DNA of 64,000 bases. Source: Stella humosa. GTDB lineage: Bacteria; Pseudomonadota; Alphaproteobacteria; ATCC43930; Allostellaceae. The translations under genes and the position numbers were made by a program. The stretch covers positions 3,112,001 through 3,176,000 of the forward strand of contig NZ_AP019700.1 of assembly GCF_006738645.1 (NCBI RefSeq), written 5' to 3'. How positions within the stretch are numbered: the first letter of the stretch is position 1; each line of letters begins with the position of its first letter. Positions 10,002 through 42,892 of the stretch are shown here, one piece after another. The notes beneath the pieces were generated by a model, which was not told the origin of the DNA, did not search any database, and saw nothing but the letters and a program-made list of their open reading frames with translations.

Positions 10002-10028
10002 CACCGCTCGATGCCAGTGGAGGGTAGG

Positions 10029-10826
10029 ATGAAGCTGACCCAGGCCCAGCTCGACGAATACCGAACCAAGGGCTACCTCTACTTCCCCGGGCTGATCACG
10101 CCAGCGGAAGTGGCGGTGCTGCGCGGGGCCGTCCCCGCCCTGCTGACGCGCACCGGCCCCGAGATCAAGCGCGACGGCCCGGAAGCACCGCCCCGCCTCG
10201 TCTATGCCCCGCACGACTACTCGCCGCCCTTCCAGGCGCTGAGCCGGTTGCCGCGCATGCTGGGCGCCGTGCGCCAGTTGCTGGATGACGAGGTCTATGT
10301 CTATCAGAGCCGGATCAACCTGAAGCTGCCGTTTGCCGGCGACTCCTGGTCGTGGCACCAGGACTTCTCGGCCTGGCACCGCCGCGATGCGATGGCGCGG
10401 CCGCATGCGGTGATGGCAGCCGTGTTCCTGGACGACTGCACCGTTGCCAACGGACCGCTGCTGGTGATCCCGGAGAGCCAGACCGACGATGTCGATCTCG
10501 TCCTCAGCCGCGAATATGACGTGCAGGGCTACAAGGTCGAGCGCGTCAGCGGCGAGCTGATCGCCGATCTGGCCGGCCAGCACGGCATCGCCGACCTGCT
10601 GGGCCCGGCCGGGTCGGTCGCCTTCATCCATCCGACCCTGATGCACGGCTCGGCACCGAACATGACCCCCTGGTCGCGGTCGATCTACTACCTCAACTAC
10701 AACGCGGTCACCAACAAGACCCGCCAGAGCGAGCGGCCCTGGTTCATGAACAACCCGGACACCGCGGCCCTGGTGGAAGTCGACGACGGGGCGATCCTGG
10801 CCCAGGCACCGGCCGCCGCGGCCTGA
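10029..10826 (+). CDS. PhyH-family Fe(II)/2-oxoglutarate dioxygenase
   Basis: A 265-residue soluble dioxygenase of the phytanoyl-CoA/ectoine hydroxylase family. The iron triad is visible: H-x-D in SWHQDFSAWH and a distal His in IHPTLMHGS. An Arg in WSRSIYYLNYN is placed to bind 2-oxoglutarate. The Asp is kept, so this is a hydroxylase type rather than a halogenase, which has Ala or Gly there. The ATG at 10029 is chosen because GGAGGG lies a few bases before it; an in-frame GTG or ATG six codons earlier has no such site. Transcribed alone and divergently from the IclR gene. Substrate is unknown. Confidence 0.9.
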   Translation: MKLTQAQLDEYRTKGYLYFPGLITPAEVAVLRGAVPALLTRTGPEIKRDGPEAPPRLVYAPHDYSPPFQALSRLPRMLGAVRQLLDDEVYVYQSRINLKLPFAGDSWSWHQDFSAWHRRDAMARPHAVMAAVFLDDCTVANGPLLVIPESQTDDVDLVLSREYDVQGYKVERVSGELIADLAGQHGIADLLGPAGSVAFIHPTLMHGSAPNMTPWSRSIYYLNYNAVTNKTRQSERPWFMNNPDTAALVEVDDGAILAQAPAAAA

Positions 10827-28259: not shown

Positions 28260-30602
28260 GTGGCGCTGCGACCCGACGACCTGATCATTACCGACGCGCT
28301 GGCCCGCCGGCCGCGGAGAACTCCCGACCTGCGAGCCGAGGCCGCGGCCGCGCGCGAACTGTCGGCCCTGATGTGCGACGAACCCGGGCGGGCCATCGCG
28401 CGCTTCCTGGAACTGGCGATCGAACTTTGCGGGGCCGGCTCGGCCGGCCTCAGCCTCATCGGCAACGGCCCCGCTGGCGAGCGGCGCTTCGACTGGGATG
28501 CCGTGGCCGGGCCGCTGCATGGTCACACCGGCGGCCACTCGCCGATCGACTTCAGCCCCTGCGGCCTGTGCATGGCCAGCGGCCACACGATCCTGGTCGA
28601 CCGGCCATACCGGGTCTTCACCTACCTCGACGCGGCGGCCCGGCCGTTGCTGGAAGGGCTGATCGTCCCCCTTTACGACACCGGCGGGACGGAGCTTGGC
28701 ACCATCTGGATCGTGCACCACGACGCCGGCCGGCATTTCGACGCCGAGGATGCGCGCGTCATGGAGCAACTGGCGATCCAGCTCGTGCTCGCCCTCAAGC
28801 TCCGCGCAGAGAGCGAGCGGGCCGGCACCATCGCCCGGCAGGTGGAGAGGCTGAAGGCGCACAATGCCGAACTGATCGACGACGGCGCCTTCCTGCGTGG
28901 CATCCTGGCGGCATCGGCCGACTGCATCAAGGTACTGGACCTTGATGCGCGGGTCGTCTTCATGAGCGAGGGCGGCCAGCGGGTGATGGAGGTCGGTGAC
29001 TTCGAAAGCATCCGCGGCTGCCCTTGGCCGGACTTCTGGCAGGGCCAGGGACGGATCGAGGTCGAGGCGGGAATTGCGGCGGCCAGGGCTGGCTCCACCT
29101 GGAGCTTCCGGGGGGCCGCCCCGACCATGGCCGGCACGCCGCGCTGGTGGGACGTGCAGGTCACCCCCATCTTCGGGGCCGACGGCCGGCCGGAGAAGCT
29201 GCTGGCCGTCTCGCGCGATGTCACCGAGGGCCGCCTTGGCCAGATCGCGCTGGAGGAGGCGCTCGGCCTCAATACGCTCATCCTCAACTCCAGTCGCGAC
29301 TGCGTGGTCGTGCTCGACCTGGAAGGCCACACCCGCTTCGTCAGCCCCGGCGGCATCGCGTCGATGGAGATATCGGACGTCGAGGCCATCATCGGCCTAT
29401 CCTGGCTGCGTGTCTGGAAAGGCGACGACAACGCCGCGGCGCGCGCCGCCGTGGCCACGGCGGCTGCCGGCGGCATCGGGCGCTTCCAGGGCTTCTGCCC
29501 GACCCACCGGGGCACGCCCAAATGGTGGGACGTGATGATCTCGCCCCTGCCGGGGGCCGATGGCCGCATCGAGCGGCTGGTATCAATCGGCCGCGACATC
29601 ACCGACCTGAATGAGATCGAGCAGCGGCTGGCGCTGAGCGAGGCGACCCTGCGCCTGGCGATCGACGCGGCCGAGATCGGCACCTGGGACCTCGACCTGA
29701 CCACCGATACCCTTGTCTGGTCGGACCGCACCAAGCAGATGTTCGGCATCGCGCCGGACGTGCCGTGCAGCATGGCGGACTTCTATTCCGGCCTGCATCC
29801 CGACGACGCGATGGCCACCGCCGACGCCTTTGCCTCCGCCCTCGATCCGGTGCGCCGGGCCACCTACGACGTGGAGTATCGCACGATCGGGCGGGACGAC
29901 GGGGTCCTGCGCTGGGTGGCGGCCAAGGGCCGGGGCATCTTCGACGAGCAGGGCCGGTGCATCCGCGCGGTGGGCACGGCGATCGACATCTCCGGCCGCC
30001 GCCAGGCCGAGGAGCGCCAGCGCCTGCTGACCCACGAACTGAACCATCGCATGAAGAACACCCTGTCGATGGTGCAGGCGATCGCCAACCAGACCATGCG
30101 CGGGACGGTACCAATCCTGGAAGCCCGCGACGCCTTCAACGCACGGTTGAGTGCGCTCGGCAAGGCCCAGGACATCCTCACCAGCACGAGCTGGTCGCAG
30201 GCCGGGCTCGACGAGGTCATCCACGGCGCTCTTGGCGCCCATGGCGGCGAGACCGCACGCTTCCGCCATGCCGGCCCGCCGGTCCACCTGTCGGCCAAGT
30301 GCGCGCTGGCCATGTCGCTGGCGCTGCATGAACTGGCCACCAACGCGGCCAAGTATGGGGCGCTGTCGAACGAGACCGGCACGGTCGACATTCGCTGGAC
30401 GGTCGACGCGTCGAGATTCCGCTTCGTCTGGAGCGAGACCGGCGGCCCGCCGGTCGCTACACCGGCCAGCAAGGGCTTCGGCTCGCGGCTGATCGAACGC
30501 TCGCTTGCCAGCTATTTTTGTGGGACCGCAATCCTGTCCTTTGCCCCGGGCGGTCTCGCCTTTACGTTGGACGCGCCCCTGGCGGCGCTGACCGGCGAAT
30601 AA
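28260..30602 (+). CDS. GAF-PAS-PAS-PAS HWE-family sensor histidine kinase
   Basis: A soluble sensor of about 780 residues with no membrane segments. A GAF domain (LVDRPYRVFTYLDAAARP) comes first, then two closely similar PAS units that share the motif TPxWWDVxxxP, and a third PAS near residue 460 (LRLAIDAAEIGTWDLDL). The kinase core is the HWE type: ELNHRMKNTLSMVQAIA with H596, LHELATNAAKYGAL in the ATP lid region and VWSETGG giving the WxE signature. HWE kinases often serve light or general-stress pathways in alphaproteobacteria. The start is uncertain: GTG at 28260 is the first plausible codon after the upstream stop, and CTG at 28203 has a better AGGA site. Confidence 0.88.
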   Translation: MALRPDDLIITDALARRPRRTPDLRAEAAAARELSALMCDEPGRAIARFLELAIELCGAGSAGLSLIGNGPAGERRFDWDAVAGPLHGHTGGHSPIDFSPCGLCMASGHTILVDRPYRVFTYLDAAARPLLEGLIVPLYDTGGTELGTIWIVHHDAGRHFDAEDARVMEQLAIQLVLALKLRAESERAGTIARQVERLKAHNAELIDDGAFLRGILAASADCIKVLDLDARVVFMSEGGQRVMEVGDFESIRGCPWPDFWQGQGRIEVEAGIAAARAGSTWSFRGAAPTMAGTPRWWDVQVTPIFGADGRPEKLLAVSRDVTEGRLGQIALEEALGLNTLILNSSRDCVVVLDLEGHTRFVSPGGIASMEISDVEAIIGLSWLRVWKGDDNAAARAAVATAAAGGIGRFQGFCPTHRGTPKWWDVMISPLPGADGRIERLVSIGRDITDLNEIEQRLALSEATLRLAIDAAEIGTWDLDLTTDTLVWSDRTKQMFGIAPDVPCSMADFYSGLHPDDAMATADAFASALDPVRRATYDVEYRTIGRDDGVLRWVAAKGRGIFDEQGRCIRAVGTAIDISGRRQAEERQRLLTHELNHRMKNTLSMVQAIANQTMRGTVPILEARDAFNARLSALGKAQDILTSTSWSQAGLDEVIHGALGAHGGETARFRHAGPPVHLSAKCALAMSLALHELATNAAKYGALSNETGTVDIRWTVDASRFRFVWSETGGPPVATPASKGFGSRLIERSLASYFCGTAILSFAPGGLAFTLDAPLAALTGE

Positions 30603-30653
30603 AATAAACCTTGCCGAGCAACGATCTTCCTGCCGTCCTTGCGTTGAAGGAAC

Positions 30654-31049
30654 ATGGCAAGCTCTTCACCCCCACATAGCGTCCTGGTCGTGGACGACGA
30701 GGTCCTGGTCCGCATGGACCTGGCCGACACGATGCAGGAGGCCGGCTTTCACATCTACGAGGCCGGCTCGGCGGACGAGGCAATCCGCATCATGGAAGCC
30801 CACCCCGGCATCGGCGCCCTGTTCACCGACATCGCGATGCCGGGATCGATGGATGGGCTGAAGCTGGCGCACTATGTCCGCGACCGCTGGCCGCCGACGC
30901 GGATCGTCGTCGCGTCGGGCCACACCGAATGCGGCGCCGACGTCCTTCCCCGCGGCGCCCTGTTCATAGCCAAGCCCTTCCGGCAGTCCGACCTGACGCG
31001 CGCGATGCAGGCGATCGGTGCGGACACGGGGCCCGGCGGCCGCTCCTAG
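30654..31049 (+). CDS. Single-domain response regulator
   Basis: A 131-residue stand-alone receiver. The acidic pair is in VLVVDDEVLV, the phospho-acceptor is D59 in FTDIAMPG, the signalling Ser is in VVASGHT and the conserved Lys is in IAKPF. It lies 51 bases after the HWE kinase gene on the same strand, so it is the probable phosphate acceptor of that kinase. With no output domain it should act by protein-protein contact or as a phosphate sink. Confidence 0.92.
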   Translation: MASSSPPHSVLVVDDEVLVRMDLADTMQEAGFHIYEAGSADEAIRIMEAHPGIGALFTDIAMPGSMDGLKLAHYVRDRWPPTRIVVASGHTECGADVLPRGALFIAKPFRQSDLTRAMQAIGADTGPGGRS

Positions 31050-31133
31050 CCCGGCCGCCCCTAGCCCGATCCCGTCGGGGTGATATAGGCTGGATCTTCC
31101 CCGCCAGCCCCCGCCCCCGAGGTCATCCCCGCC

Positions 31134-31799
31134 ATGGCGAAGCAGCTCGCCTTCGTGCACACCGTGCCCGGCCTCGTGCCGACCTTCGCCGACCTCGCCC
31201 GCGCCAACATGCCGGGGTGGGAGACGTTCAACATCGTCGACGAGAGCCTGCTGCGGAACACCATCCGCAGCGGCCGCCTGACCGAGGCGACCATGCGCCG
31301 GGTCGCCGGCCATGTCTGGTCGGCCGTCGATGCCGGCGCCGATGCCGTTCTCGTCACCTGCTCGTCGATCGGGCCGGCGGTGGACGCCACCCGGGCGCTG
31401 TGCCCCGTGCCGCTCTTCCGCATCGACCAGGAGATGGCCGACCGCGCCGTCGCCACGGGCGCCCGCATCGGCGTGCTCGCCACCCTGAATTCCACGTTGC
31501 AGCCGACCCGCGATCTCGTCGCCCGCCGGGCGGAACAGGCCGGCCGGTCGGTCGAGATTCGCGACGACGTCTGCCAGGGCGCCTTCGAGGCGTTGCAGCG
31601 GGGCGACCGCGACGGCCATGACCGCGCGGTGGCAGACGCCTTGCTGCGCATGATCCCAACGGTCGACGTGATCGTGCTGGCGCAGGCGTCGATGGCGCGC
31701 GTCGTCGACACCCTGCCGGCGGGCACCGTCACCGTCCCGGTGCTGACCAGCCCCGGGTCTGCCATGGAGCGGCTGGCGGCCGAACTGCCGGCGGCCTGA
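31134..31799 (+). CDS. Aspartate/glutamate racemase-family protein
   Basis: A 221-residue member of the racemase superfamily. The first catalytic Cys is C76 in LVTCSSIGPAV. At the usual second Cys position it has Ala (A185 in VLAQASMARV), so it has one of the two acid-base thiols, the reverse of the homologue at 17088. LAQASM is common in this subfamily, so activity may be retained. It precedes an EamA exporter by three bases, forming a likely two-gene unit for handling an amino acid or dicarboxylate. Confidence 0.83.
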   Translation: MAKQLAFVHTVPGLVPTFADLARANMPGWETFNIVDESLLRNTIRSGRLTEATMRRVAGHVWSAVDAGADAVLVTCSSIGPAVDATRALCPVPLFRIDQEMADRAVATGARIGVLATLNSTLQPTRDLVARRAEQAGRSVEIRDDVCQGAFEALQRGDRDGHDRAVADALLRMIPTVDVIVLAQASMARVVDTLPAGTVTVPVLTSPGSAMERLAAELPAA

Positions 31800-31802
31800 G
31801 CG

Positions 31803-32717
31803 GTGGGCCGATCCGGATCGGCCGACGGGCAGGTCACGCTCTTCGGCTACGCCCTGCTGGCCGTGGTGTGGATGAGCTGGGGCCTCAGCTACCCGGTCAT
31901 GCGCATCGCGCTCGACTATATCGACCCGTGGGCCAGCCGCTGCCTCGTCATGCTGCTGGCCGGCACCTTCCTGCTGGCCGTCGCACGGGCGACCGGCCAC
32001 AGCCTGCGGGTGCCGCGCGACCACTGGCGCGACCTGGTGGTGGTCGCCATCATCAACATGTCGATCTTCCAGATCGGCATGACCTATGGCGTGCTGCTGC
32101 TGAGCCCCGGCCGCACCGCGCTCCTCATCTATACGATGCCGATCTGGACGGCGATCCTGGCCACCCTCTTCCTCAAGGAACGGCCGACGCCGCGCCACCT
32201 GGCCGCCCTGTGCCTGGGCATCGCCGGCATCGCCGTGCTGATGAGCCAGGACCTGTCCAAGCTCGCCAACGCCCCGGCGGGAGCAGCCCTGACGCTGATG
32301 GCCGCCTTTGCGTTTGCCGCCGGCACCATCCTGCTGAAGCGGCGCATCTGGCGGGTCGATGTCGGCGTGCTGGCCGGCTGGCAGCTTCTGGTCGGCGTGC
32401 TGCCGCTGCTGGCGATCTGGTCCGTGGCCGACGTCCATACCGACTGGGCCGCGATTCCGCTCGACGGCTGGCTGGCGGTCGCCTTCCTCGCCTACATCTC
32501 GAACGCGGCTGCCTACCTCGCCTGGTTCCGCGTCGTCGCCTCCCTGCCGGCGACCGTGTCGGGCATCGGCATATTGGCCGTGCCGGTCGTCGGGCTGGGC
32601 AGCAGCGCCATCGTGGTGGGCGAGGCGGTGGGGCCGCACGAGATTGCCGCTTTGCTGTGCATCGGCTCGGCCCTCGGCATCACACTGCTCCCAAAAAGAC
32701 GACTGAGACGCAACTGA
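31803..32717 (+). CDS. EamA/DMT-family transporter
   Basis: A 304-residue inner-membrane protein with ten predicted helices in two EamA repeats; the first repeat shows WMSWGLSYPVMRIAL, and the second starts around residue 155 (TLMAAFAFAAGTILL). GTG start three bases after the racemase stop. Family members usually export metabolites or amino acids. The direct genetic link to a racemase-like protein suggests export or uptake of a chiral acid; substrate is unknown. Confidence 0.88.
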   Translation: MGRSGSADGQVTLFGYALLAVVWMSWGLSYPVMRIALDYIDPWASRCLVMLLAGTFLLAVARATGHSLRVPRDHWRDLVVVAIINMSIFQIGMTYGVLLLSPGRTALLIYTMPIWTAILATLFLKERPTPRHLAALCLGIAGIAVLMSQDLSKLANAPAGAALTLMAAFAFAAGTILLKRRIWRVDVGVLAGWQLLVGVLPLLAIWSVADVHTDWAAIPLDGWLAVAFLAYISNAAAYLAWFRVVASLPATVSGIGILAVPVVGLGSSAIVVGEAVGPHEIAALLCIGSALGITLLPKRRLRRN

Positions 32718-32818
32718 TATATGTCCGGCCCTTCCATTGGGGCCACCTTCGGGACTAGGCTGTATACCAGCAACGTGATCGCGGCAGCATTGCCCCGTCC
32801 CCTCCCGGAGATGCACCG

Positions 32819-33700
32819 ATGTCCCTTACCGCCGAGCCGCTTTCGTCGCGCACGAGCGGCACTTCGCTGACCCCAGAGCAGGTCGCGCGCTACCGCCGCG
32901 ACGGCTATCTCTTTCCCATCCCGGTCCTGACGCCGGCAGAGGCCGCGCTCTATCGCGGTCGCCTCGAATCCTTCGAGGCGCGCGAAAAGCGCGCGCTACG
33001 CGGCGCGCTGCGCCACAAGTCGCACCTGCTGTTCCCGTGGCTGTGGGATCTCGTCCACCATCCGAAGATCCTGGATGCGGTCGAGGGAATCCTTGGGCCC
33101 AACTTCCACTGCTGGTCCAGTTCCTTCTTCATCAAGGAGGCGCAGGACCCGGGCTTCGTCTCCTGGCACCAGGACTCGACCTACTGGGGCCTGTCGGAGC
33201 CCGAGGTCATCACGGCCTGGGTCGCCCTCAGCCCCAGCACCATCGAGGCCGGCGCCATGAAGGTCATCCCCGGCAGCCAGGGCGAGCAGGTGGCGCACAC
33301 CGACACCTATGACGCCAACAACATGCTGACGCGCGGCCAGGAGCTGGCGGTCGAGGTCGACGAGTCGCAGGCGGTCGACCTGGTGCTGCAGCCGGGCGAG
33401 ATGTCGCTGCACCATGTGCGCATCTTCCACGGCTCGGAGCCCAACCGCGCCCAGGACCGCCGGATCGGCTTTGCCATCCGCTACATCCCGACCCATGTGC
33501 GCCAGGTCATCGGCCCCCGTGACGGCGCGGTGCTGGTGCGCGGCGTCGACGCCTTCAACAACTTCGAGCAGGAGCCGGCACCCGACGGCGAGATGTCCCC
33601 CGGCGCCCTGGCGGCCCACCAGGCCGCCGCCGAGCGTCAGGCCGCCATCCTCTATGCCGGCACCCAGACCACCAGCTTCGAGAACGTGGTCCGCAACTGA
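32819..33700 (+). CDS. PhyH-family Fe(II)/2-oxoglutarate dioxygenase (tandem copy 1)
   Basis: A 293-residue dioxygenase. Iron ligands are H117 and D119 (SWHQDSTYWG) with distal H204 (FHGSEPN); R221 (GFAIRYIPT) is placed for 2-oxoglutarate. It shares about half its residues with the next gene along the whole length, including YRRDG-LFPI near the N-terminus and RGVD-F-NF near the C-terminus, so the pair arose by tandem duplication. GGAG precedes the ATG at 32819. It is the first gene of a plus-strand run leading to a TRAP transporter and alcohol dehydrogenase, consistent with hydroxylation of an imported compound. Confidence 0.9.
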   Translation: MSLTAEPLSSRTSGTSLTPEQVARYRRDGYLFPIPVLTPAEAALYRGRLESFEAREKRALRGALRHKSHLLFPWLWDLVHHPKILDAVEGILGPNFHCWSSSFFIKEAQDPGFVSWHQDSTYWGLSEPEVITAWVALSPSTIEAGAMKVIPGSQGEQVAHTDTYDANNMLTRGQELAVEVDESQAVDLVLQPGEMSLHHVRIFHGSEPNRAQDRRIGFAIRYIPTHVRQVIGPRDGAVLVRGVDAFNNFEQEPAPDGEMSPGALAAHQAAAERQAAILYAGTQTTSFENVVRN

Positions 33701-33731
33701 CCGCGAACGATCGACCGTCGGAGGAACGCCC

Positions 33732-34583
33732 ATGACCAAGCGCCTGACCGAGCAGGAGGTCGCCGCCTATCGGCGCGACGGCATCCTGTTCCCGATCCGC
33801 GTCTTTCCCGAACACGAGATGGCGGGCTATCGCGGCCGCCTGGCCGAGTTGGAAGCCCGCGACGGCGGCACCATCTCGCGGCCGCACAACCAGAAGCCCC
33901 ATCTGCTGGTGCCATGGCTGGCAGACCTGGTCCGTCATCCGGCCATCCTGGACGCGGTCGAGGATGTGGTCGGTCCGGACATCCTTTGCTGGGGTTCCGG
34001 CTTCTTCAACAAACGCGGCGGCGACGGTACCTTCGTTTCCTGGCACCAGGACGCCACCTATTGGGGCCTGTCGGAATCCGACGTGGTGACGGCCTGGATC
34101 GCCTTCTCGGCCTCGACGCCGGCCAATGGGTGCATGCGGGTGATCCCCGGCACGCAGGATGCCGACCAGTTGCCGCACGCCGACACCTTCGCCACCGACA
34201 ACCTGCTGAGCCGCGGCCAGGAGATCGCGGTCCAGGTCGACGAGAAGGCCGCGGTCGACGTCGTCCTGGCGCCGGGCGAGATGTCGCTCCACCACGTCAA
34301 GATCGTGCACGGGTCCGAGCGCAACGACAGCGACGGGCCGCGCATCGGCTATGCCGTGCGCTACATCCCGACCCGCATCCGCCAGCTTTCCGGCATCCGC
34401 GACAGCGCCAGCCTGGTGCGCGGCGTCGACCGGTTCGACAATTTCGACCACGAGCCCACACCCAAGGGCGACTTCCACCCCGAGGCCGTCGCCTACCACA
34501 CGGCGATGCTCGAGCGGCAGGTCGCCATCCTCTACGCCGGCGCCGACCAGCGTCCGGCTTACGGCAAGGTCGTCGGCATGTAG
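33732..34583 (+). CDS. PhyH-family Fe(II)/2-oxoglutarate dioxygenase (tandem copy 2)
   Basis: A 283-residue paralogue of the upstream dioxygenase. The iron site is intact: H105 and D107 (SWHQDATYWG), distal H193 (VHGSERN), and the Arg in YAVRYIPT. Most differences fall in the substrate-facing stretch between the N-terminal helix and the HxD motif (RPHNQKPHLL against GALRHKSHLL), so the two copies may act on different substrates or positions. GGAGG precedes the ATG; 31 bases separate it from copy 1. Confidence 0.9.
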   Translation: MTKRLTEQEVAAYRRDGILFPIRVFPEHEMAGYRGRLAELEARDGGTISRPHNQKPHLLVPWLADLVRHPAILDAVEDVVGPDILCWGSGFFNKRGGDGTFVSWHQDATYWGLSESDVVTAWIAFSASTPANGCMRVIPGTQDADQLPHADTFATDNLLSRGQEIAVQVDEKAAVDVVLAPGEMSLHHVKIVHGSERNDSDGPRIGYAVRYIPTRIRQLSGIRDSASLVRGVDRFDNFDHEPTPKGDFHPEAVAYHTAMLERQVAILYAGADQRPAYGKVVGM

Positions 34584-34650
34584 GGCCTGCCGACGGCGAT
34601 CAAGGACGAAGGTCCGGGGCCAGGAACAATATCCGAGGGAGGAAACCACC

Positions 34651-35682
34651 ATGTTGAGCAGACGCAAGTTCGGCACGTTCGCCGGAGCCGCCGCCGTCAC
34701 CACCGCCGCTGCCGCCACGCCCGCCCGCGCCCAGCAGGCGACGAAGTGGAAGATGCAGTCCATGTGGCAGGCGGGGACCATCAACCAGAAGGTCTTCGAG
34801 GACTTCTGCGTCCGCGTGAAGGCGATGTCGAACAACCGCCTCGACATCGAGGCGCTGGCCGTCGGCACCATCGTCGCCTACACCGAGACTGTCGACGCGA
34901 TGCAGAACGGCATCCTCGACGCCCACCAGTCGGGCGGCCCCTACTTCTCGGGCAAGGAGCCGGCGCTGGCCCTGATCGGTGACCTCAACGGCGGCTACGA
35001 CAACCCCTACCAGATGCAGATGTGGTTCGAGTATGGCGGGGGCCTCGAACTGGCGCGGGAGATCTACAAGAAGTTCGACATCCACTATGTCGGCCCGGTG
35101 TGGTGGGGCGTGGAATCGGTACCGGCCAAGAAGCCGCTGCGAACCCTGGCAGACTTCAAGGGCATCAAGATGCGCGTGCCCGAGGGCCTGGGCGCCGAGG
35201 TCTGGCGCCGCGCCGGTGCCGGCGTCGTCACCCTGCCGGGCAGCGAGGTCTATACCGCGCTCGAGCGCGGCGTGATCGAGGCGGCCGACTGGGGCACGCT
35301 CGGCATGAACCAGGACCTGGGCTACCACAAGATCGCGGGCTTCCCGCTCTATCCCGGCTTCCACTCGATGCCGTCGGCCGAGGTGGCGGTCGCCCTGCCG
35401 AAATGGAACGCCCTGTCCAAGGACGTCCAGGTGATGCTGGAGGTGGCGACGCGCGACTTCGCCCGCGACATGATCCAGCGCGTTGCGGTCGAGGACTACA
35501 AGGCGGCCGAGGCGGCCAAGGCCCAGGGCGTCGAGCTGATCAACTGGTCGGCCGAGGAGCGCAAGAAGTTCCGCGCGCTGGCCCAGGCAGCCTGGGCCGA
35601 CTGGTCGAAGAAAAGCCCGATGGCCAAGCGCGTCTATGACAGCCAGCTCGCCTTCCTGAAGCGGCTGCAGCTGCTGGACTGA
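34651..35682 (+). CDS. TRAP transporter substrate-binding protein (DctP family)
   Basis: A 343-residue periplasmic receptor with a twin-arginine signal (SRRKFGTFAG) and cleavage near ARAQQA. The conserved ligand Arg is in IKMRVPEGLG, followed by LPGSEVYTALERGVIEAADW, the DctP hallmark. WWGVES and SGGPYFSGKEPA resemble the branch that binds 2-oxo or hydroxy carboxylates, but specificity is not certain. GAGGGAGG precedes the ATG. It lies just downstream of the two dioxygenase genes and upstream of the TRAP membrane genes. Confidence 0.93.
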   Translation: MLSRRKFGTFAGAAAVTTAAAATPARAQQATKWKMQSMWQAGTINQKVFEDFCVRVKAMSNNRLDIEALAVGTIVAYTETVDAMQNGILDAHQSGGPYFSGKEPALALIGDLNGGYDNPYQMQMWFEYGGGLELAREIYKKFDIHYVGPVWWGVESVPAKKPLRTLADFKGIKMRVPEGLGAEVWRRAGAGVVTLPGSEVYTALERGVIEAADWGTLGMNQDLGYHKIAGFPLYPGFHSMPSAEVAVALPKWNALSKDVQVMLEVATRDFARDMIQRVAVEDYKAAEAAKAQGVELINWSAEERKKFRALAQAAWADWSKKSPMAKRVYDSQLAFLKRLQLLD

Positions 35683-35707
35683 GCGACAGATCGAGCAAAC
35701 AGGACCA

Positions 35708-35742
35708 GGGGCGGACGGCCGATGCCGTCCGCCCCCTATTTT
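35708..35742 (+). terminator. Intrinsic-terminator-like hairpin after the TRAP binding-protein gene
   Basis: Twelve-base arms (35708-35719 and 35724-35735) pair perfectly around a 4-base loop and are followed by TATTTT. It is the best intrinsic terminator in the window. Because the TRAP membrane genes follow on the same strand, it most likely acts as an attenuator giving excess binding protein. Confidence 0.7.
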
Positions 35743-35755
35743 CGCCGAGGCAGGC

Positions 35756-36271
35756 ATGAGCGAATCCAATCCTGCGATCGGGGTCGAGCGCGACCCGATC
35801 GGACGCTTCACGACAGCCCTGAACCTGAAGCTGAGCTGGTTCTATGGCTTCGCCGTGCTGGTGACCGCGTATGAAGTGATCATGCGCTACGGGCTGAACC
35901 AGCCCACGATCTGGGTGCATGACATGGCGATCGCGCTGTGCGCCACGGCCTTCATCTTCGCCGGCGGCTACGCGATGGTGAACGACCAGCACATCCGCAT
36001 CACCAGCATCTACGACAACTTCTCGCCGCGCACGCGGGTGATGATGGACGTTCTGCATGCGGTGCTGACGCTGGGCTTTGTCGTGGCGCTCTCCTATGCG
36101 GCCGCCATCCAGGCATGGCGATCGGTGATGCTGATGGAAACCAGCGGCCGGGCCTGGGACGTGCCGATACCGGCCATCCTCAAGTCCATGCTGCTGCTGG
36201 GTTCGCTGCTGATGGTGGTGCTGTCGATCGACCGGCTGGTCCGCTCGATCCGCCGGCTGGCGCGGGGATAG
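35756..36271 (+). CDS. TRAP transporter small membrane subunit (DctQ family)
   Basis: A 171-residue membrane protein with four helices and the DctQ pattern YEVIMRYGLNQPTIWVHDMA. It links the binding protein to the large subunit. The next gene starts six bases after its stop. Confidence 0.92.
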   Translation: MSESNPAIGVERDPIGRFTTALNLKLSWFYGFAVLVTAYEVIMRYGLNQPTIWVHDMAIALCATAFIFAGGYAMVNDQHIRITSIYDNFSPRTRVMMDVLHAVLTLGFVVALSYAAAIQAWRSVMLMETSGRAWDVPIPAILKSMLLLGSLLMVVLSIDRLVRSIRRLARG

Positions 36272-36276
36272 GGCCA

Positions 36277-37587
36277 ATGTCGATCGAACTCATCACCTTC
36301 CTGATGTTCGGGGGGATGATTGCCCTCCTGTTGCTCGGCCTGCCGCTTGCCTTCGTCACCGGCATCATCGCCGTCATCTTCGGCCTTGGCCTGTTCGGCC
36401 TGCCCAGCCTGCTGCTGATCTCCAGCCGCATCTATTCGTTCATGAACGAGTACGTGCTGGTCTCCGTACCGATGTTCATTCTCATGGCATCCCTGATGGA
36501 GCGATCGGGAGTGGCCAGGGACCTGTTCCGGGCGATGCATGTCTGGTCGGGCAGCCTGCGCGGCGGGCTGGCGGTCCAGACGACCATCGCGGCCACCATC
36601 ATGGCGGCCATGACCGGCATCATCGGCGGCGAGATCGTGCTGCTGGGGCTGGTCGCCCTGCCCCAGATGCTGCGCCTGGGCTATGACCGCAAGCTGGCCA
36701 TCGGCACCATCTGCGCCGGCGGCTCGCTCGGCAGCATGATCCCGCCCAGCATCGTGCTGGTGATCTATGGCCTGACGGTGAACGTCTCCATCGGCGACCT
36801 GTTCTCGGCCGCCATCGTGCCCGGCCTGATCATGGCCGGCATGTACATCGCCTATATCCTGATCCGCTGCCACCTGAACCCCAGCCTCGGCCCGCCGGCA
36901 CCGGAGGAGGAGCGCAACATCCCGCTCGTCGAGAAGCTGCGGATGCTGAAGAGCATCGCGCTCCCGATGCTGATTGCGGCCAGCGTGCTGGGCACGATCT
37001 ACACCGGCGTCGCCTCGGTGACGGAGGCCGCCGGCATGGGCGTCGTCGGCACCGCGATTGCAGCCGCCCTGCGGCGCGAGCTGAACTGGAAGATGATCCA
37101 GGAAACGCTGGTCCAGACGATGACCGCCTGCGGCATCCTGCTGTGGGTGTCCTTCGGTGCGACCGCCATGATCGGCGTCTACAACCTGGCCGGCGGTCCG
37201 GCTTTCATCCGCAACATGATGATCGGCCTGCCGGTCGCCCCCATCGTCATCATCTTCATCATGATGGCGATCCTGTTCGTCCTCGGCTGCCTGATGGACT
37301 GGATCGGCATCTGCCTGCTGACCATGCCGATCTTCGTGCCGATCGTGAAGGCGCTCGGCTACGACCCGATCTGGTTCGGCATCCTGTTCTGCATGAACAT
37401 GCAGGTCTCCTACCTGTCGCCGCCGTTCGGCCCGGCCGCGTTCTACCTCAAGGGCGTGGCGCCGCCCGACATATCGCTGAACGAGATCTTCAGCTCCGTA
37501 TGGCCTTTCATCGGCCTGCAGGTGGTGGCGATCACGCTGCTGATCTTCTTCCCGGGCCTGGCGCTCTGGCTGCCGTCGCTCAACTGA
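36277..37587 (+). CDS. TRAP transporter large membrane subunit (DctM family)
   Basis: A 436-residue inner-membrane protein with about twelve helices. DctM landmarks are SVPMFILMASLMERSG, MTGIIGGEIVLLG, GGSLGSMIPPSIVLVIYG and, late in the protein, FGILFCMNMQVSYLSPPFG. It is the sodium-coupled transport subunit in this family. It completes a three-gene TRAP system and is followed after ten bases by the alcohol dehydrogenase gene. Confidence 0.94.
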   Translation: MSIELITFLMFGGMIALLLLGLPLAFVTGIIAVIFGLGLFGLPSLLLISSRIYSFMNEYVLVSVPMFILMASLMERSGVARDLFRAMHVWSGSLRGGLAVQTTIAATIMAAMTGIIGGEIVLLGLVALPQMLRLGYDRKLAIGTICAGGSLGSMIPPSIVLVIYGLTVNVSIGDLFSAAIVPGLIMAGMYIAYILIRCHLNPSLGPPAPEEERNIPLVEKLRMLKSIALPMLIAASVLGTIYTGVASVTEAAGMGVVGTAIAAALRRELNWKMIQETLVQTMTACGILLWVSFGATAMIGVYNLAGGPAFIRNMMIGLPVAPIVIIFIMMAILFVLGCLMDWIGICLLTMPIFVPIVKALGYDPIWFGILFCMNMQVSYLSPPFGPAAFYLKGVAPPDISLNEIFSSVWPFIGLQVVAITLLIFFPGLALWLPSLN

Positions 37588-37597
37588 GGTCGCGTCC

Positions 37598-38704
37598 ATG
37601 GAGTTCAATGCCGCCGTCCTGCACCGGACGAACGACCCCCTGTCGGTGGAGGTCGTCCGCGTGGGCGACCTCCGCCCGACCGACGTGCTGGTCCGCATCC
37701 GCGCGTCCGGCCTGTGCCACACCGACCTGGAGGTGATGCAGGGCCAACTCGCCTACCCGCTGCCCATCGTGCTGGGGCATGAAGGGGCGGGAATCGTCGA
37801 GCGGGTGGGGGCCGACGTGACGCTGGTGAAGCCCGGCGACCACGTCGTCTGCTCCTGGAACCCGTCCTGCGGCCATTGCTACTATTGCGACCGCGGCGAG
37901 CCGATCCTGTGCGAGCCCTACTCGCACCACCAGCCGCGGGGGCACCTGCTGGACGGCACCTCGCGCATGACGGTCGGGGGCCAGAAGCTGCATCATTTCT
38001 CGGTCGTCTCGTCCCACGCGGAATACTGCGTGGTGCCGGAGACCGGGGCGATCCCGGTGCCGAAGGAGATTCCGTTCGACCGGGCCTGCCTGATCGGCTG
38101 TGGCGTGATGACGGGCGTGGGCGGTGCCGCGCGCGTCGCCCGCATCCCGGCCGGATCGAACGTGGCCGTGCTGGGCTGCGGCGCGGTCGGGCTGAACGCC
38201 ATCCAGGGTGCGCGCCTGCAATCGGCCGAGCGCATCATCGCCATCGACCGCGATCCCGCCCGCCTCGCGCTGGCGACGGAGTTCGGCGCCACCGACCTCA
38301 TCCGCGCCGACGAACCGGACGTGGTGGCCCGCGTGAAGGCACTGACCGGCGGCCGGGGTGCGGACTGCGTGCTGGAGAGTGCGGGCCATGTCGACGCCTA
38401 TCGCCTGTCGTCGGAGATCACCCGCCCGGGCGGTGATCTGGTCTGGCTCGGCAAGGTGAACGTCGACCGCGACGTTGCCTTCCGCTGGGGCTCGCTGATG
38501 GGCGAGAAGCGGATCACCCGGTCGAGCTATGGCGGTGCCCGGCCGCGCCGAGACTTCCCGTGGCTCGCCCGCCTCTATCTCGACGGGCGGCTGAAGCTGG
38601 ACGAGTTGATCACGATGCGGCTCTCCTTGGCGGAGATCAACCTGGGCTTCGCCGCGATGATTCGCGGGGAGACCGTGCGCGCCGTCGTGGAGTTTCCCGA
38701 ATGA
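37598..38704 (+). CDS. Zinc-dependent alcohol dehydrogenase (MDR, class III-like)
   Basis: A 368-residue medium-chain dehydrogenase. Catalytic zinc ligands are in GLCHTD and GHEGAGIV, and the structural zinc site is the four-Cys CGHCYYCDRGEPILC. The nucleotide fold reads VAVLGCGAVGLNAIQGA, and the Asp in IAIDRD suggests NAD. It ends GETVRAVVEF. It overlaps the next gene by four bases and follows the TRAP genes, so it probably oxidises a hydroxylated product of the dioxygenases. That order of steps is inference. Confidence 0.92.
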   Translation: MEFNAAVLHRTNDPLSVEVVRVGDLRPTDVLVRIRASGLCHTDLEVMQGQLAYPLPIVLGHEGAGIVERVGADVTLVKPGDHVVCSWNPSCGHCYYCDRGEPILCEPYSHHQPRGHLLDGTSRMTVGGQKLHHFSVVSSHAEYCVVPETGAIPVPKEIPFDRACLIGCGVMTGVGGAARVARIPAGSNVAVLGCGAVGLNAIQGARLQSAERIIAIDRDPARLALATEFGATDLIRADEPDVVARVKALTGGRGADCVLESAGHVDAYRLSSEITRPGGDLVWLGKVNVDRDVAFRWGSLMGEKRITRSSYGGARPRRDFPWLARLYLDGRLKLDELITMRLSLAEINLGFAAMIRGETVRAVVEFPE

Positions 38705-39738
38705 TCGAGTTCCGCCATCCGCCCATGCAGCCCAACTGGGTGGATCGTCCGCACGAGATGCTGGAACTGGGCGAGTTCGGACTGGAATCGGGCGAGGTCA
38801 TCCGCGATTGCCGCCTGTCCTATGTCGTCCATGGCCGGCCCAACGCCGACCGCTCGAACGTGATCCTGGTGCTGTCGGCGATCGGCAGCACCCATCACCG
38901 CCTCGACGTCTGGATCGGCCCCGGCAAGGCGCTCGATCCCAACCGCGACTGCATCGTGGCGGTGGATGCGATCGGCAACGGCCTCACCACTTCGCCCAGC
39001 ACCAGCAGCAGCCAGCCGGGCCTGGCCTTTCCCCGCTTCACCATCCGCGACATGGTCGAGAGCCAGCGCCGCCTGGTCGAGCATCTGGGGGTGCGCCGGC
39101 TCTATGCCGTGGCCGGCGCCTCCATGGGCGGGATGCAGGCGCTGCAATGGGGCGTCAGCCACCCCGACATGATGGACCGCATCGTCGCCATGGTGCCGAT
39201 GGCCCGCACGACCGCCTGGTCGGTCGCGGTCAACGTCGCCTCGCGCGGCGCCCTGATGGCCGATCCGGCCTGGCCCGATGGCGAGGTCACGAGGGGATGG
39301 GACGGCTGGGTCGCCGTCATGCAGGTGCTGGCCGCCCGCACGCCGGCCGCCTTGGCGGCGGAGAACACCGACCCGGCCGGCATGCCGGCGATGTTGGCCG
39401 AGCGCGCCCAGGCGATGCGCGACAGCGGCGCCCAGGCGGTCGACTGGGTCTACCAGACCTATGCCTATGACGCCCACGACGTGGCGACGACGCCCGGCTG
39501 CGATGGCACATTGGCGGGCGCGCTGGCCCGCATTCGCGCCCGCACGCTGATCCTGGCGGCCGACAACGACCTCTACAACCCGATCGCCGCGGCGCGCGAG
39601 GCCGCCGCCGCCATTCCCGACTGCCGCTATGTGGAGATCCCGTCGCCCGAGGGTCACATGGCGGCATCCTTCCGCCGGCCGCGCGATGTCGCCTTCATCG
39701 ACCGGGCGATGCAGGAATTCTTCGCCGGGCCGCGATAG
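38701..39738 (+). CDS. MetX-like alpha/beta-hydrolase
   Basis: A 345-residue alpha/beta-hydrolase related to homoserine O-acetyltransferase. The nucleophile elbow is GASMGGMQAL, the acid is in LILAADNDLYNP and the His is in SPEGHMAASF. The MetX substrate-binding motif with its conserved Gly-Cys-Gly-Ser-Thr run is replaced by VLSAIGSTHHR, so true MetX activity is doubtful. It starts inside the alcohol dehydrogenase stop codon (ATGA). Its 3' end overlaps the convergent metA coding region by 85 bases. Acyl transfer to, or hydrolysis of, the product of the upstream pathway is plausible. Confidence 0.82.
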   Translation: MIEFRHPPMQPNWVDRPHEMLELGEFGLESGEVIRDCRLSYVVHGRPNADRSNVILVLSAIGSTHHRLDVWIGPGKALDPNRDCIVAVDAIGNGLTTSPSTSSSQPGLAFPRFTIRDMVESQRRLVEHLGVRRLYAVAGASMGGMQALQWGVSHPDMMDRIVAMVPMARTTAWSVAVNVASRGALMADPAWPDGEVTRGWDGWVAVMQVLAARTPAALAAENTDPAGMPAMLAERAQAMRDSGAQAVDWVYQTYAYDAHDVATTPGCDGTLAGALARIRARTLILAADNDLYNPIAAAREAAAAIPDCRYVEIPSPEGHMAASFRRPRDVAFIDRAMQEFFAGPR

Positions 39739-40619
39739 GGCCCATCGCGGCGCGCGGCCGCCACCCCTTCCAGCCAGTTCTGGAACAGCCGCACCGCCTG
39801 CGGCCGCCAGAACGCCACCGGCATGGCCGAAGCGTCCCCGCGCGGAAAGTAGCCGGACGGCAGCCGTGTCGGCCGCCCCGCCGCCAGGTCGCGGACGAAC
39901 TCCGACCGCAGGGTGTCGGCATCGTATTCGGGGTGGTTCAGCATGTAGTGGGCGCGCAAGCCCGCATCCTCGGCCAGGCACAGGCCAGTGGCGGCGCTGG
40001 CGGCCAGCACGCACAAGCCCCCCTGCCCCACCAGGTCAGCCGGATCCGTCGCGGTGTGCCGGGAAACCGGCGCCAGGAGGCAATCGCCGATGCCGGACAG
40101 GATCGGTGCCGCCGGCATACGGACCTCGTGGGCGAACACGCCGAATGCCTTCTCGGCCAGGTCGCGCTTGGCAATGCCGTGCCGGTGCCACAATCCGGCC
40201 TGGGCCGCCCAGCAGACGAGGTAGGCCGGAACCCGGCCGGCCGCCGCCCAGTCCAGGATGCGCACGATGCCCGGCCAGTACCGCACCTCGTCGAACGGCA
40301 GCCGCTCGACCGGGGCGCCGGTGACGATGATCGCGTCGGGCCCTGCCCGCTCCACCTCGGCCCATGGCCGGTAGAACCGGGCGAGATGCGTTCCAGCGGG
40401 CATCTCGACGCCATCGGGAACGGCCAGCGTGAGCCGGACCCGGTGGCGGGAGGAAGCCAGAAGGCGCGCGAACTGGGCCTCGGTCGACGGTCGGTCCGGC
40501 ATCAGGTTGACGAGGACGACCGACAGCTCGCGGGTACCGGCCGATGGCTGTTCGACGGCGGCCCCCTCGTCGCGCAGGAGGGCCGCGGCGGGCAGGTCCG
40601 CGGGCAGGACGATCGGCAT
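39654..40619 (-). CDS. metA: Homoserine O-acyltransferase (MetA family)
   Basis: A 321-residue cytoplasmic enzyme for the first committed step of methionine synthesis, acylating homoserine with succinyl- or acetyl-CoA. The acyl-enzyme Cys is C136 in LVCWAAQAG and the His-Glu pair is in MLNHPEYD. VNLMPDRPSTEAQFARLL and the later ITGAPVE-like VTGAPVERLPF are family signatures. GGAGG precedes the ATG. The C-terminal tail of about 30 residues overlaps the convergent MetX-like gene. It follows metY on the same strand across a gap with a stem-loop. Confidence 0.9.
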   Translation of the reverse strand: MPIVLPADLPAAALLRDEGAAVEQPSAGTRELSVVLVNLMPDRPSTEAQFARLLASSRHRVRLTLAVPDGVEMPAGTHLARFYRPWAEVERAGPDAIIVTGAPVERLPFDEVRYWPGIVRILDWAAAGRVPAYLVCWAAQAGLWHRHGIAKRDLAEKAFGVFAHEVRMPAAPILSGIGDCLLAPVSRHTATDPADLVGQGGLCVLAASAATGLCLAEDAGLRAHYMLNHPEYDADTLRSEFVRDLAAGRPTRLPSGYFPRGDASAMPVAFWRPQAVRLFQNWLEGVAAARRDGPYRGPAKNSCIARSMKATSRGRRKDAAM

Positions 40620-40685: not shown

Positions 40686-41996
40686 TCAGGCGGCCAGCGC
40701 CGGGCGGCCGGCCGCCGTCAGGGCGGCATCCAGGTCGGCCAGGATGTCGTCGATATGCTCGATGCCGATCGACAGGCGGACATAGCCATCCGTCACGCCC
40801 GTCTGCCGCTGCTCGTCCGGCGAGAGCTGCGAGTGGGTCGTGGATGCCGGATGGATCGCCAGCGAGCGCACGTCGCCGATGTTGGCGACATGGTAGAAGA
40901 GCCCGAGCGCGTCGATGAAGCGCCGGCCTGCCTCGTGCCCGCCGGCCAGTTCGAGCCCGACCAGCCCGCCCATGCCGCCCTGGAGATAGGCCTCGGCCCG
41001 GCGCTTCTGCTCGCCGCCCAGATGGGCCGGATGGATCACGCGCACCACCTCCGGCCGGGCCGCCAGCCAGTCGGCGACGCGGGCGGCGTTGGCGCAGTGT
41101 TCGCGCATGCGCAGGGCCAGGGTCTCCAGCCCCTGGATAAAGAGGAAGGCGTTGAACGGGCTCATGGCGCAACCAAGATCGCGCTGCAACGTGGTGCGCG
41201 CCTTGATGATGTAGGCGATAGGGCCGAGCGGCTTCACGGCCTCCGTCCAGATCGCCCCGTGATAGCTGGGGTCGGGCCGGGTCAGCATCGGGAAGCGGTC
41301 GCCATGCTTCTCCCAGTCGAAGCGACCGCCATCGACGATCATGCCGCCGATCGAGGTGCCGTGCCCGCCCACGTACTTGGTGGCCGAGTAGACGACGATA
41401 TGGGCGCCATGGTCGAGCGGCCGGCAGATCACCGGGGCGGCGGTGTTGTCGACGATCAGCGGCACGCCCAGCGCCTCGCCGATCCGGGCCACCTCGGCGA
41501 TCGGGAAGACCTGGAGCTTGGGGTTCGGCAGCGTCTCGGCATAGTAGGCGCGCGTGCGGGCGTCGGTGGCGCGGCGGAAGTTCTCCGGATCGGCCGGGTC
41601 GACGAACCGCACCTCGATCCCCATGGTGCGGAACGTGTTCGCCATCAGGTTCCACGAACCGCCATAGAGGTCGGTCGAGCTGACGATGTTGTCGCCGGCA
41701 TGGGCGATGTTCTGCAGCGCCATGGCGGTTGCCGCTTGGCCGGAGCTGACGGCCAGTGCCGCCACACCGCCCTCGAGTGCGGCCATGCGCTGCTCCAGCA
41801 CGTCGCAGGTGGGGTTGCCGATGCGGCTGTAGATGTTGCCGAACTTCTTCAATGCGAAGAGGTCCGCCGCATTGTCGGTCCCCTCGAGGTCGAAGGCGGT
41901 GGACTGGTAGATCGGCACGGCCACGGCGTTGGTCGCGAGATCCTTGCGGAAGGCGCCGTGGATGGCGACGGTGGCGGGGTTCTTCGAGAGGGTCAT
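40686..41996 (-). CDS. metY: O-acylhomoserine sulfhydrylase (MetY, Cys/Met-metabolism PLP family)
   Basis: A 436-residue fold I PLP enzyme that makes homocysteine from O-acylhomoserine and sulfide. The MetY-type start is PATVAIHGAF, followed by VPIYQSTAFDLEGTDNAADLF and NIYSRIGNPT. The PLP lysine is in YSATKYVGGHGTSIGGMIVDGG. The long form (over 420 residues) with the KYVGGHG insertion separates MetY from the shorter MetB/MetZ. With metA downstream it supports direct sulfhydrylation. I found no SAM riboswitch in the 44 bases before the start. Confidence 0.93.
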   Translation of the reverse strand: MTLSKNPATVAIHGAFRKDLATNAVAVPIYQSTAFDLEGTDNAADLFALKKFGNIYSRIGNPTCDVLEQRMAALEGGVAALAVSSGQAATAMALQNIAHAGDNIVSSTDLYGGSWNLMANTFRTMGIEVRFVDPADPENFRRATDARTRAYYAETLPNPKLQVFPIAEVARIGEALGVPLIVDNTAAPVICRPLDHGAHIVVYSATKYVGGHGTSIGGMIVDGGRFDWEKHGDRFPMLTRPDPSYHGAIWTEAVKPLGPIAYIIKARTTLQRDLGCAMSPFNAFLFIQGLETLALRMREHCANAARVADWLAARPEVVRVIHPAHLGGEQKRRAEAYLQGGMGGLVGLELAGGHEAGRRFIDALGLFYHVANIGDVRSLAIHPASTTHSQLSPDEQRQTGVTDGYVRLSIGIEHIDDILADLDAALTAAGRPALAA

Positions 41997-42040
41997 GGGT
42001 CGTCTCCTTGTTGGGTGGATCGGCGAAGTGGTCCGGGAAA

Positions 42041-42892
42041 TCAGGCAGCGGCCAGGCGATGGACCTTCGCCCGGCCGGTCATGGCGCGATCGAGATGGGC
42101 GGAAAGTGCTTCGAGGAAGGCGGCCGGGTGCGTGCGCGGCAGCATGTGCCCGGCGCCGGCGACGATCCGGCACTCGGCCCCGGGGATGGCCGTGGCCAGG
42201 CGGGCCGCGATGCGCGCGGCCGGCCGGGTCGTGAGCTCGCCCGCCATGATCAGCGTCGGCAGGCGGAGGCCGGCACAATCGGCCAGGCGCGCCGGGTCGC
42301 CCTCGGCGGCATCGAAGTTGTGGGCGACGGCCGGGGCCAGCCGGCACAACGCCTGCCGGCGCTCCGGCTTCACGGCGGCCCAGGTGCCGGCACCGTTCCA
42401 GTAGTCGACGAAGCGGCCGAGGCCGGCTTCATGGTCGCCCGTCGCAACCGCGCCGCGCACGGCATCGGCGACCGGCGCGATGTCGTCGAGCAGGCCGGCG
42501 TCAAACGCCGAGCCGTCGCGCAGCAAGTGGAAGGATACCGGCTCGACCAGGACGAGCGAGGCCAGCCGGTCGCTGCCGAGTGCCAGCCGGAGGGCGACCG
42601 CCCCGCCATAGGAATGGCCGACCAGGTGCACGCGGCCGGGAAGACGGTCGATGACACGGGCGACCACGGCTGCCTCGTCGGCCAGGGTGATGGGCCGGTG
42701 CCCGGGCCACGGATCGCTGTCGCCATGGCCGTAGGCGTCGACGGCGACCAGGGTGAAGCGCCCGCACAACGCCTCGCGCAGGCCTGCCCATTGCTGGCGG
42801 GACGAAGCGGTGCTGTGCAGCAGGACCAGTGCCGGGCCCTGGCCGGCCGCCTCGTAGACGATACGGGCGCCGTCGATCGCGATAGAGGGCAT
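42041..42892 (-). CDS. Alpha/beta-fold hydrolase
   Basis: A 283-residue hydrolase. The oxyanion region is VLLHSTASSRQQW, the nucleophile Ser is in LVGHSYGGAVAL, and the His is in AGAGHMLPRTHP. The ATG at 42892 is preferred, with GGGGAA just upstream; an ATG four codons earlier is possible. It lies 44 bases before metY on the same strand and may be co-transcribed. No substrate can be proposed. Confidence 0.85.
   Translation of the reverse strand: MPSIAIDGARIVYEAAGQGPALVLLHSTASSRQQWAGLREALCGRFTLVAVDAYGHGDSDPWPGHRPITLADEAAVVARVIDRLPGRVHLVGHSYGGAVALRLALGSDRLASLVLVEPVSFHLLRDGSAFDAGLLDDIAPVADAVRGAVATGDHEAGLGRFVDYWNGAGTWAAVKPERRQALCRLAPAVAHNFDAAEGDPARLADCAGLRLPTLIMAGELTTRPAARIAARLATAIPGAECRIVAGAGHMLPRTHPAAFLEALSAHLDRAMTGRAKVHRLAAA

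Follow-up and report, generated by a model that had tools for sequence, protein, structure and literature searches.

A conserved probable operon of Stella humosa that joins PhyH-family dioxygenases to a TRAP importer, an alcohol dehydrogenase and a MetX-like hydrolase

A 64,000-nucleotide stretch of the genome of the soil bacterium Stella humosa ATCC 43930 (contig NZ_AP019700.1; hereafter, the window) contains, at positions 32819–39738, a run of genes that encode two PhyH-family dioxygenases (PhyH1 and PhyH2), a tripartite ATP-independent periplasmic (TRAP) importer (DctP, DctQ and DctM), a zinc-dependent alcohol dehydrogenase (ADH) and a MetX-like alpha/beta-hydrolase (ABH) (Table 1). The initial annotation of this locus spoke of a six-gene set, which the gene calls correct to seven, all on the + strand; its inventory of two diverged PhyH paralogues with intact iron sites, a full TRAP system, a zinc ADH and an ADH–hydrolase pair coupled by an ATGA overlap is borne out throughout by the results that follow. 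The gaps along the set are 31, 67, 73, 5, 10 and −4 bases, the last being the overlap of the ADH and ABH genes at 38701–38704. In the Pfam scans, PhyH2, DctP, DctM and ABH were represented by longer open frames that carry upstream extensions.

Table 1 Features of the operon, in window coordinates.
Feature	Position	Strand	Length	Evidence
Leader 5' of PhyH1, candidate promoter region	32718..32818	+		Short blocks conserved in an alignment of four Stella genomes
PhyH1	32819-33700	+	293 aa	PF05721 99 bits, cut-off 22
PhyH2	33732-34583	+	283 aa	PF05721 104.4 bits, cut-off 22 (longer frame)
DctP, TRAP solute-binding protein	34651-35682	+	343 aa	PF03480 132.7 bits, cut-off 23.4 (longer frame)
GC-rich hairpin in the dctP/dctQ gap, 12 pairs, T-rich tail	35708-35735	+		z-score -3.16
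DctQ, TRAP small permease	35756-36271	+	171 aa	PF04290 74 bits, cut-off 28.3
DctM, TRAP large permease	36277-37587	+	436 aa	PF06808 263.5 bits, cut-off 23.8 (longer frame)
Zinc medium-chain ADH	37598-38704	+	368 aa	PF08240 (ADH_N) 97.6 bits, cut-off 23.5; PF00107 87.5 bits
MetX-like alpha/beta-hydrolase (ABH)	38701-39738	+	345 aa	PF00561 (Abhydrolase_1) 71.4 bits, cut-off 25.8 (longer frame)

The two dioxygenases, 57% identical to each other, both score well within the PF05721 family, and the residues H117-x-D119, H204 and R215 (PhyH1 numbering) are invariant in all 42 rows of an alignment that includes both window copies (L077, L094, L103, L118 and L121 were omitted, and the ends of L070, L072 and L073 trimmed; here and below, L codes denote loci and G codes genomes of the comparison). 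H204 is presumably the third iron ligand, an assignment made from its spacing to the arginine, R215; H198 and H199 are invariant as well. Among the fold matches listed for the predicted PhyH1 structure (predicted local distance difference test score, pLDDT, 90.8), ThoJ (PDB 6zyl) comes first, with Z 33.7 over 252 amino acids, 2.1 Å and 36% identity, and SyrB2 next (Z 26.2); by sequence as well as by the Foldseek matches listed, SyrB2 and CytC3 are the best relatives behind ThoJ. For PhyH and DctP alike, these fold comparisons cover Foldseek's best matches only, and a family outside them may still be related.

The proximity of SyrB2 and CytC3 would fit a role of the PhyH proteins as halogenases or as secondary-metabolite enzymes of the kind that SyrB2, CytC3 and ThoJ represent, as would the scores of PhyH1 and PhyH2 against the chlorinating-enzyme model TIGR01762 (94.1 and 91.8 bits) and a 49% identical relative that adjoins acyl-carrier-protein and acyl-AMP-ligase genes on a Sphingobium plasmid. 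However, both scores fall below the model's cut-off of 226.3; the iron-ligand Asp that halogenases replace with a small residue is retained as D119 in 42 of the 42 rows; and no carrier-protein or peptide-synthetase family was detected among the 20 window frames scanned. We accordingly give this possibility very little credence.

The tandem pair is not a recent duplication within the genus. In a quick tree of 97 rows (L032 was left out as the same record as L051), the Stella PhyH2 genes group with the PhyH of L052, L087, L062, L058, L103, L104 and L115 in an 11-row set with 97% support in the SH-aLRT branch test, and because this set excludes PhyH1, the two genes appear to represent two old lineages. 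The pair is found in four Stella genomes and in G168 (L052), and across these genomes (5 + 5 rows) the two lineages are consistently told apart by nine positions; L104 has a similar pair, the second member of which is PhyH2-like. The S. humosa genome yields 13 PhyH matches in total, and the nearest paralogue within it (near 5335254), like its S. vacuolata counterpart, has no other query gene within about 7 kb on each side. A third PhyH-family gene lies elsewhere in the window (10011-10826, + strand, 271 amino acids, 110.2 bits).

The TRAP importer is complete, with DctP, DctQ and DctM all above the cut-offs of their families and DctM, as the longer frame, also above that of TIGR00786 (304.4 bits, cut-off 268.45). 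DctP has a signal-like N-terminus, and its residues R175, D213-W214 and N220 are invariant in 11 of 11 aligned rows (L121 was omitted because of unknown letters in its translation). By sequence and fold, among the matches listed for the predicted DctP structure (pLDDT 86.1), the closest solved protein is 4pe3, the displayed title of which shows no ligand (Z 41.6, 41% identity), and the nearest solved binder with a named ligand is the lactate-binding TTHA0766 (Z 40.0, 34% identity). A Bordetella binder (4yic/4yzz; Z 35.6), the 2-oxoacid binder TakP (Z 35.5, 24% identity) and a ketovalerate binder (Z 34.8) follow, and the ectoine binder TeaA is more distant than the others (Z 32.5, 18% identity). 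The Z values differ little and a single fold fills the list, so that the sequence ranking carries more weight than the fold ranking. Judging by these nearest relatives, DctP appears to belong to the lactate/2-oxoacid-type TRAP subfamily, and among possible substrates of the importer, a small carboxylate is the most likely.

This ranking bears on whether the operon could be an osmolyte system, in which the TRAP proteins would import an ectoine-like solute, and the PhyH proteins would hydroxylate it in the manner of EctD. The parts are indeed reminiscent of such a system, EctD being a PhyH-family enzyme (PMC2871039) and TeaABC a TRAP importer. Nevertheless, PhyH1 and PhyH2 reach only 21.0 and 31.7 bits against the EctD model TIGR02408 (cut-off 336.5), DctP is closer to 4pe3 and to the lactate binder than to TeaA, and the presence of an ADH and a hydrolase suggests that the imported compound is broken down. 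An osmolyte role therefore seems to us hardly credible, and an ectoine-like reading of the compatible solute that the initial annotation had listed among its candidate substrates loses ground.

In the ADH, the residues that we take to bind the catalytic zinc (C40, H61 and C168) and the structural zinc (C91/C94/C97/C105), on the strength of familiar motifs, are invariant in 11 of 11 rows (L053, L118, L176 and L181 omitted, some ends trimmed). The protein scores below the cut-offs of the class III ADH model, S-(hydroxymethyl)glutathione dehydrogenase (TIGR02818; 272.9 bits, cut-off 543.95), of the model for ADHs dependent on N,N-dimethyl-4-nitrosoaniline (NDMA; 309.7 bits, cut-off 440) and of the phosphonate-named model HpnZ (121.3 bits, cut-off 328.1); a phosphonate-named GntR regulator model likewise stays below its cut-off in L074 (73 bits, cut-off 271.5). 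These two scores bear indirectly on the organophosphonate that the initial annotation had among its candidates. In ABH, S141 (within GASMGG), D290 and H319 are invariant in 14 of 14 rows (L118 omitted), which we read, again by motif, as a triad of Ser, acid and His. We considered, and discarded as support, an apparent ADH–ABH fusion of 632 amino acids in L104: its ADH half diverges from the family after about residue 252 and covers only positions 1-56 of ADH_zinc_N, as if a deletion had shifted the reading frame.

Could ABH be a homoserine acyltransferase of the methionine pathway that follows the ADH gene by accident? The protein is MetX-like (170 bits with TIGR01392), and genes for a homoserine O-succinyltransferase and a Cys/Met pyridoxal-phosphate enzyme lie immediately downstream. 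Against this, both MetX cut-offs are missed (500 for TIGR01392, and 331 for NF001209, with which ABH scores 173.7 bits), the ADH–ABH pair recurs with PhyH in unrelated genomes, and the methionine genes are on the opposite strand, all of which makes an acyltransferase of this kind very improbable. The ectoine, halogenase and MetX readings were rejected on the basis of curated cut-offs and conserved residues.

Conservation of the gene set was assessed both from PhyH and from ABH. Homologues of PhyH1 (E 1e-20 or better) are present in 53 of the 192 genomes searched, the own genome included. The full seven-gene order recurs in S. vacuolata and Stella sp. ATCC 35155, each with two PhyH genes, and in another genome of the genus (G002, L033) the contig ends inside the ADH gene. 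The order PhyH–DctPQM–ADH–ABH also appears in L090, with a non-orthologous TRAP system (DctM just 28% identical), and in L176, L190, L191 and L192 (order of G554, in the window's phylum), where the set includes a single PhyH of this subfamily. When a collection of genomes was scanned, at least 583 relatives of the PhyH subfamily were obtained, and among the best 80 of these loci, with partners counted within 7 kb, 18 have ADH, 12 have ABH, 10 have both and 28 have any of the importers searched. The sequence ends within 5 kb of PhyH in 35 of the 80; among the other 45, which extend 5 kb or more to either side of it, the corresponding counts are 11, 9, 7 and 18.

ABH homologues are uncommon: at E 1e-50, three overlapping draws of genomes gave 7 of 289, 3 of 398 and 25 of 399 with a hit. 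From 32 distinct hits, 29 loci were fetched (three weak hits with 36–37% identity, in G1013, G776 and G808, were omitted), 21 of them with at least 5 kb upstream. Among these 21, PhyH is found within 8 kb in 11 and ADH within 3 kb in 12, and the two partners go together: PhyH is present in 10 of the 12 loci with ADH as compared to one of the nine without it (Fisher p 0.0019, with relatedness ignored; L190–L192 share a genus code). The adjacency of these genes is beyond chance, and their order is retained in other genera.

The importer, by contrast with this order, changes from locus to locus. PhyH-ADH-ABH is accompanied by a branched-chain-type ATP-binding cassette (ABC) system in L055, L074, L081, L084 and L185, and in L181 by a hydrophobic putative permease (no family above cut-off) together with a HyuA-like gene. 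Given that two TRAP types, an ABC system or a putative permease accompany the same three genes, the importer is exchangeable, and PhyH-ADH-ABH looks like one catabolic module that can be served by different importers.

Several observations weigh against so neat a picture. G168, an alphaproteobacterial metagenome-assembled genome, keeps six of the seven genes in L052 and lacks ADH. No marker gene accompanies PhyH in 34 of the best 80 loci, or in 15 of the 45 with the longer flanks, so that the PhyH subfamily as such is not tied to the module. Conversely, ADH-ABH pairs occur with no PhyH within about 9 kb on each side (L177 and L179), and ADH and PhyH are both absent from eight ABH loci that extend 5 kb or more upstream (L146, L147, L174, L178, L180, L182, L183 and L194). 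The single record found in a plasmid search with ABH, plasmid p1 of Bradyrhizobium sp. 62B (L131, 7671-13050), has ADH-ABH without PhyH; there, a sterol-desaturase-like protein, a Rieske ferredoxin and a flavin (FAD) reductase stand in the place of PhyH, that is, another oxygenase with the same tail. The Sphingobium sp. RAC03 plasmid (L132) encodes a PhyH 49% identical to PhyH1 among biosynthesis-type genes, with two PhyH beside acyl-carrier-protein, acyl-AMP-ligase, P450 and glycosyltransferase genes, which places the subfamily in biosynthesis-like contexts also. Finally, with respect to the ligand, the window DctP has a Trp at the position aligned with the Gln that ends 'GPVQ' in TTHA0766, so that the two proteins may bind different compounds.

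The loci devoid of markers are also what one would expect if the adjacent genes were functionally unrelated. The order of the genes is nonetheless kept across genera while the importer is exchanged, and the ATGA overlap and the gaps of 5–10 bases also speak against it, so that we consider a lack of functional relationship improbable.

The search of plasmids with PhyH1 (E 1e-50), to which L132 belongs, returned 7 records in all, each with less than 60% identity, and the contexts in the five regions inspected are unlike. Two of them, L133 and L136 (Caballeronia and Paraburkholderia plasmids), encode a PhyH with about 45% identity to PhyH1, next to xanthine-dehydrogenase-like and DUF1116 genes and an amino acid ABC importer; L133 has an amidase in addition. 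A scan of viral contigs with DctP gave no match.

The number of hydroxylations is a separate matter. A single PhyH is seen with ADH and ABH in L090, L173 and L185, so that two hydroxylations, as originally proposed, are not required. All the same, a distant PhyH (25–28% identical to those of the window) lies upstream of the PhyH-ADH-ABH set in L176, L186, L191 and L192, in the last three of these together with a second ADH (39–40%), and with this distant PhyH cluster present in 7 of 44 loci, two oxygenation steps remain conceivable.

These patterns also speak to the alternative that the operon is a small funnel, in which each dioxygenase would have an imported compound of its own, or the two would act at alternative positions, and there would be no single linear pathway. 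The descent of PhyH1 and PhyH2 from two distinct old lineages, both with relatives of their own in other loci, would be in line with such a division of labor, and so would the nine fixed differences in the five genomes that carry the pair and the loci where a single PhyH is seen with ADH and ABH. However, both lineages have the same ADH-ABH partners (L062, L090 and L104 on the PhyH2 side, L173 and L190 on the other), their catalytic residues are identical, and the distant second PhyH beside several single-PhyH operons fits two steps on one compound. We regard the funnel as possible although doubtful, and prefer a single pathway.

The wider neighborhoods of related PhyH genes offer additional hints, with the proviso that the names of neighboring gene clusters come from a family search of one representative per cluster. 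An IclR-type regulator is found near PhyH in 13 of 80 loci (divergent in L052). In 6 of 44, PhyH has a nearby SMP-30/gluconolactonase-like gene on its upstream side. HyuA-like, PanB-like and acetoacetate-decarboxylase-like genes neighbor related PhyH in 12, 5 and 4 of 80 loci, respectively, and in L185, a phosphoenolpyruvate (PEP)-mutase/isocitrate-lyase-like gene sits between PhyH and ADH. The PanB-like hydroxymethyltransferase adjoins PhyH in L066, L072, L082 and L108 (the family search was on L066 alone). In the Bradyrhizobium loci L073, L095, L102 and L129, PhyH is followed by an acetoacetate-decarboxylase-like protein, a family 6 binding protein and a short-chain (SDR) dehydrogenase (one representative of each searched), a set that is perhaps a parallel pathway.

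At the 5' end of the operon, the leader with its conserved blocks may act as the promoter region, although a scan of 30600-40300 for consensus sigma-70 sites found none. The hairpin in the dctP/dctQ gap has a counterpart in the form of a strong stem in four other loci compared; the shuffle-based z-score refers to the window hairpin. In other importer operons, such hairpins favor the mRNA of the binding protein over that of the permease, and by analogy, more binding-protein than permease mRNA may be retained here. Directly upstream, on the + strand, are an Asp/Glu/hydantoin-racemase-family gene (31134-31799) and an EamA transporter gene (31803-32717); counterparts of both also precede the operon in Stella sp. 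ATCC 35155. On the opposite strand, adjoining ABH, are the genes for homoserine O-succinyltransferase (39657-40619, −) and the Cys/Met pyridoxal-phosphate enzyme (within 40689-42347, −).

Taken together, the operon is real, conserved and made of familiar parts: its genes, the invariant active-site residues and the linkage across genera with an exchanged importer are all directly observed. We consider it probable, with moderate confidence, that the seven genes form a single catabolic operon for import, hydroxylation, oxidation and hydrolysis; what we infer from these observations is that the genes act on one compound, the sequence of the reactions, the kind of substrate and which bond is broken. 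Under this scenario, the TRAP system would import a small carboxylate, probably akin to 2-hydroxy or 2-oxo acids; PhyH1 and/or PhyH2 would hydroxylate an unactivated C-H using O2 and 2-oxoglutarate, with the release of succinate and CO2; the zinc ADH would use NAD to oxidize the resulting alcohol to a ketone or aldehyde; and ABH would hydrolyze the product, either at an ester or lactone or at a C-C bond beside the new carbonyl. C-C cleavage as the last step is a tentative suggestion, and unlikely on balance. As regards the initial annotation, its view that the genes act as one set gains from the synteny, which is kept in congeners and in distant genomes and by no means lost in all relatives, whereas its two hydroxylations are a possibility and not a requirement, and an ectoine-like reading of its substrate is disfavored.

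A broader and more speculative proposal, to which we assign a rather low likelihood, is that PhyH-ADH-ABH constitutes a transferable chain-cleavage module independent of coenzyme A (CoA), in which O2-dependent hydroxylation beside the carboxylate and oxidation to a keto acid would be followed by a retro-Claisen reaction, a hydrolytic cleavage of the C-C bond, catalyzed by ABH. The proposal stems from the pattern that several of the neighboring families act on bonds beside oxygenated carbons; the PanB-, acetoacetate-decarboxylase- and PEP-mutase/isocitrate-lyase-like neighbors, of families that break or make C-C bonds there, would then be alternative last steps. If true, the module would be a soluble-acid counterpart of beta-oxidation that dispenses with acyl-CoA.

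Literature searches aimed at the gene set, among open-licence papers, found no description of it. PhyH-family genes abound in some environmental genomes and often have obscure roles, and the present operon ties one PhyH to a specific importer, dehydrogenase and hydrolase, which makes the substrate findable: ligands can be sought with DctP, and what each enzyme produces can be probed with the next enzyme along.

Compared with characterized systems, each component has a recognizable relative and a distinguishing feature. TeaABC and EctD combine a TRAP importer and a PhyH enzyme and resemble the operon in the kinds of parts only, with DctP nearer to other TRAP binders. The class I/III and NDMA-dependent zinc ADHs have the family and the zinc ligands in common with the window ADH, which nevertheless misses the curated cut-offs for the class III and NDMA-dependent enzymes, and the MetX/E22-type hydrolases (NCBIfam PRK07581, MetX, E22) share the fold family and the Ser-Asp-His triad with ABH, whereas ABH scores below every NCBIfam cut-off listed for it and its gene context looks catabolic. 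TTHA0766 and TakP are among the nearest to DctP by sequence and fold, at 34% and 24% identity, and TTHA0766 has Gln where DctP has the Trp noted above. ThoJ and TsaJ (PDB 6zyk and 6zyl), which function in thioamitide biosynthesis, have the fold and the HxD...H residues in common with the window PhyH. TsaJ catalyzes beta-hydroxylation of a bis-N-methylated histidine, in agreement with a parallel study of ThoJ (PMC8153245); the substrate of these enzymes is a methylated histidine within a peptide, whereas the window PhyH proteins are encoded within an importer operon.

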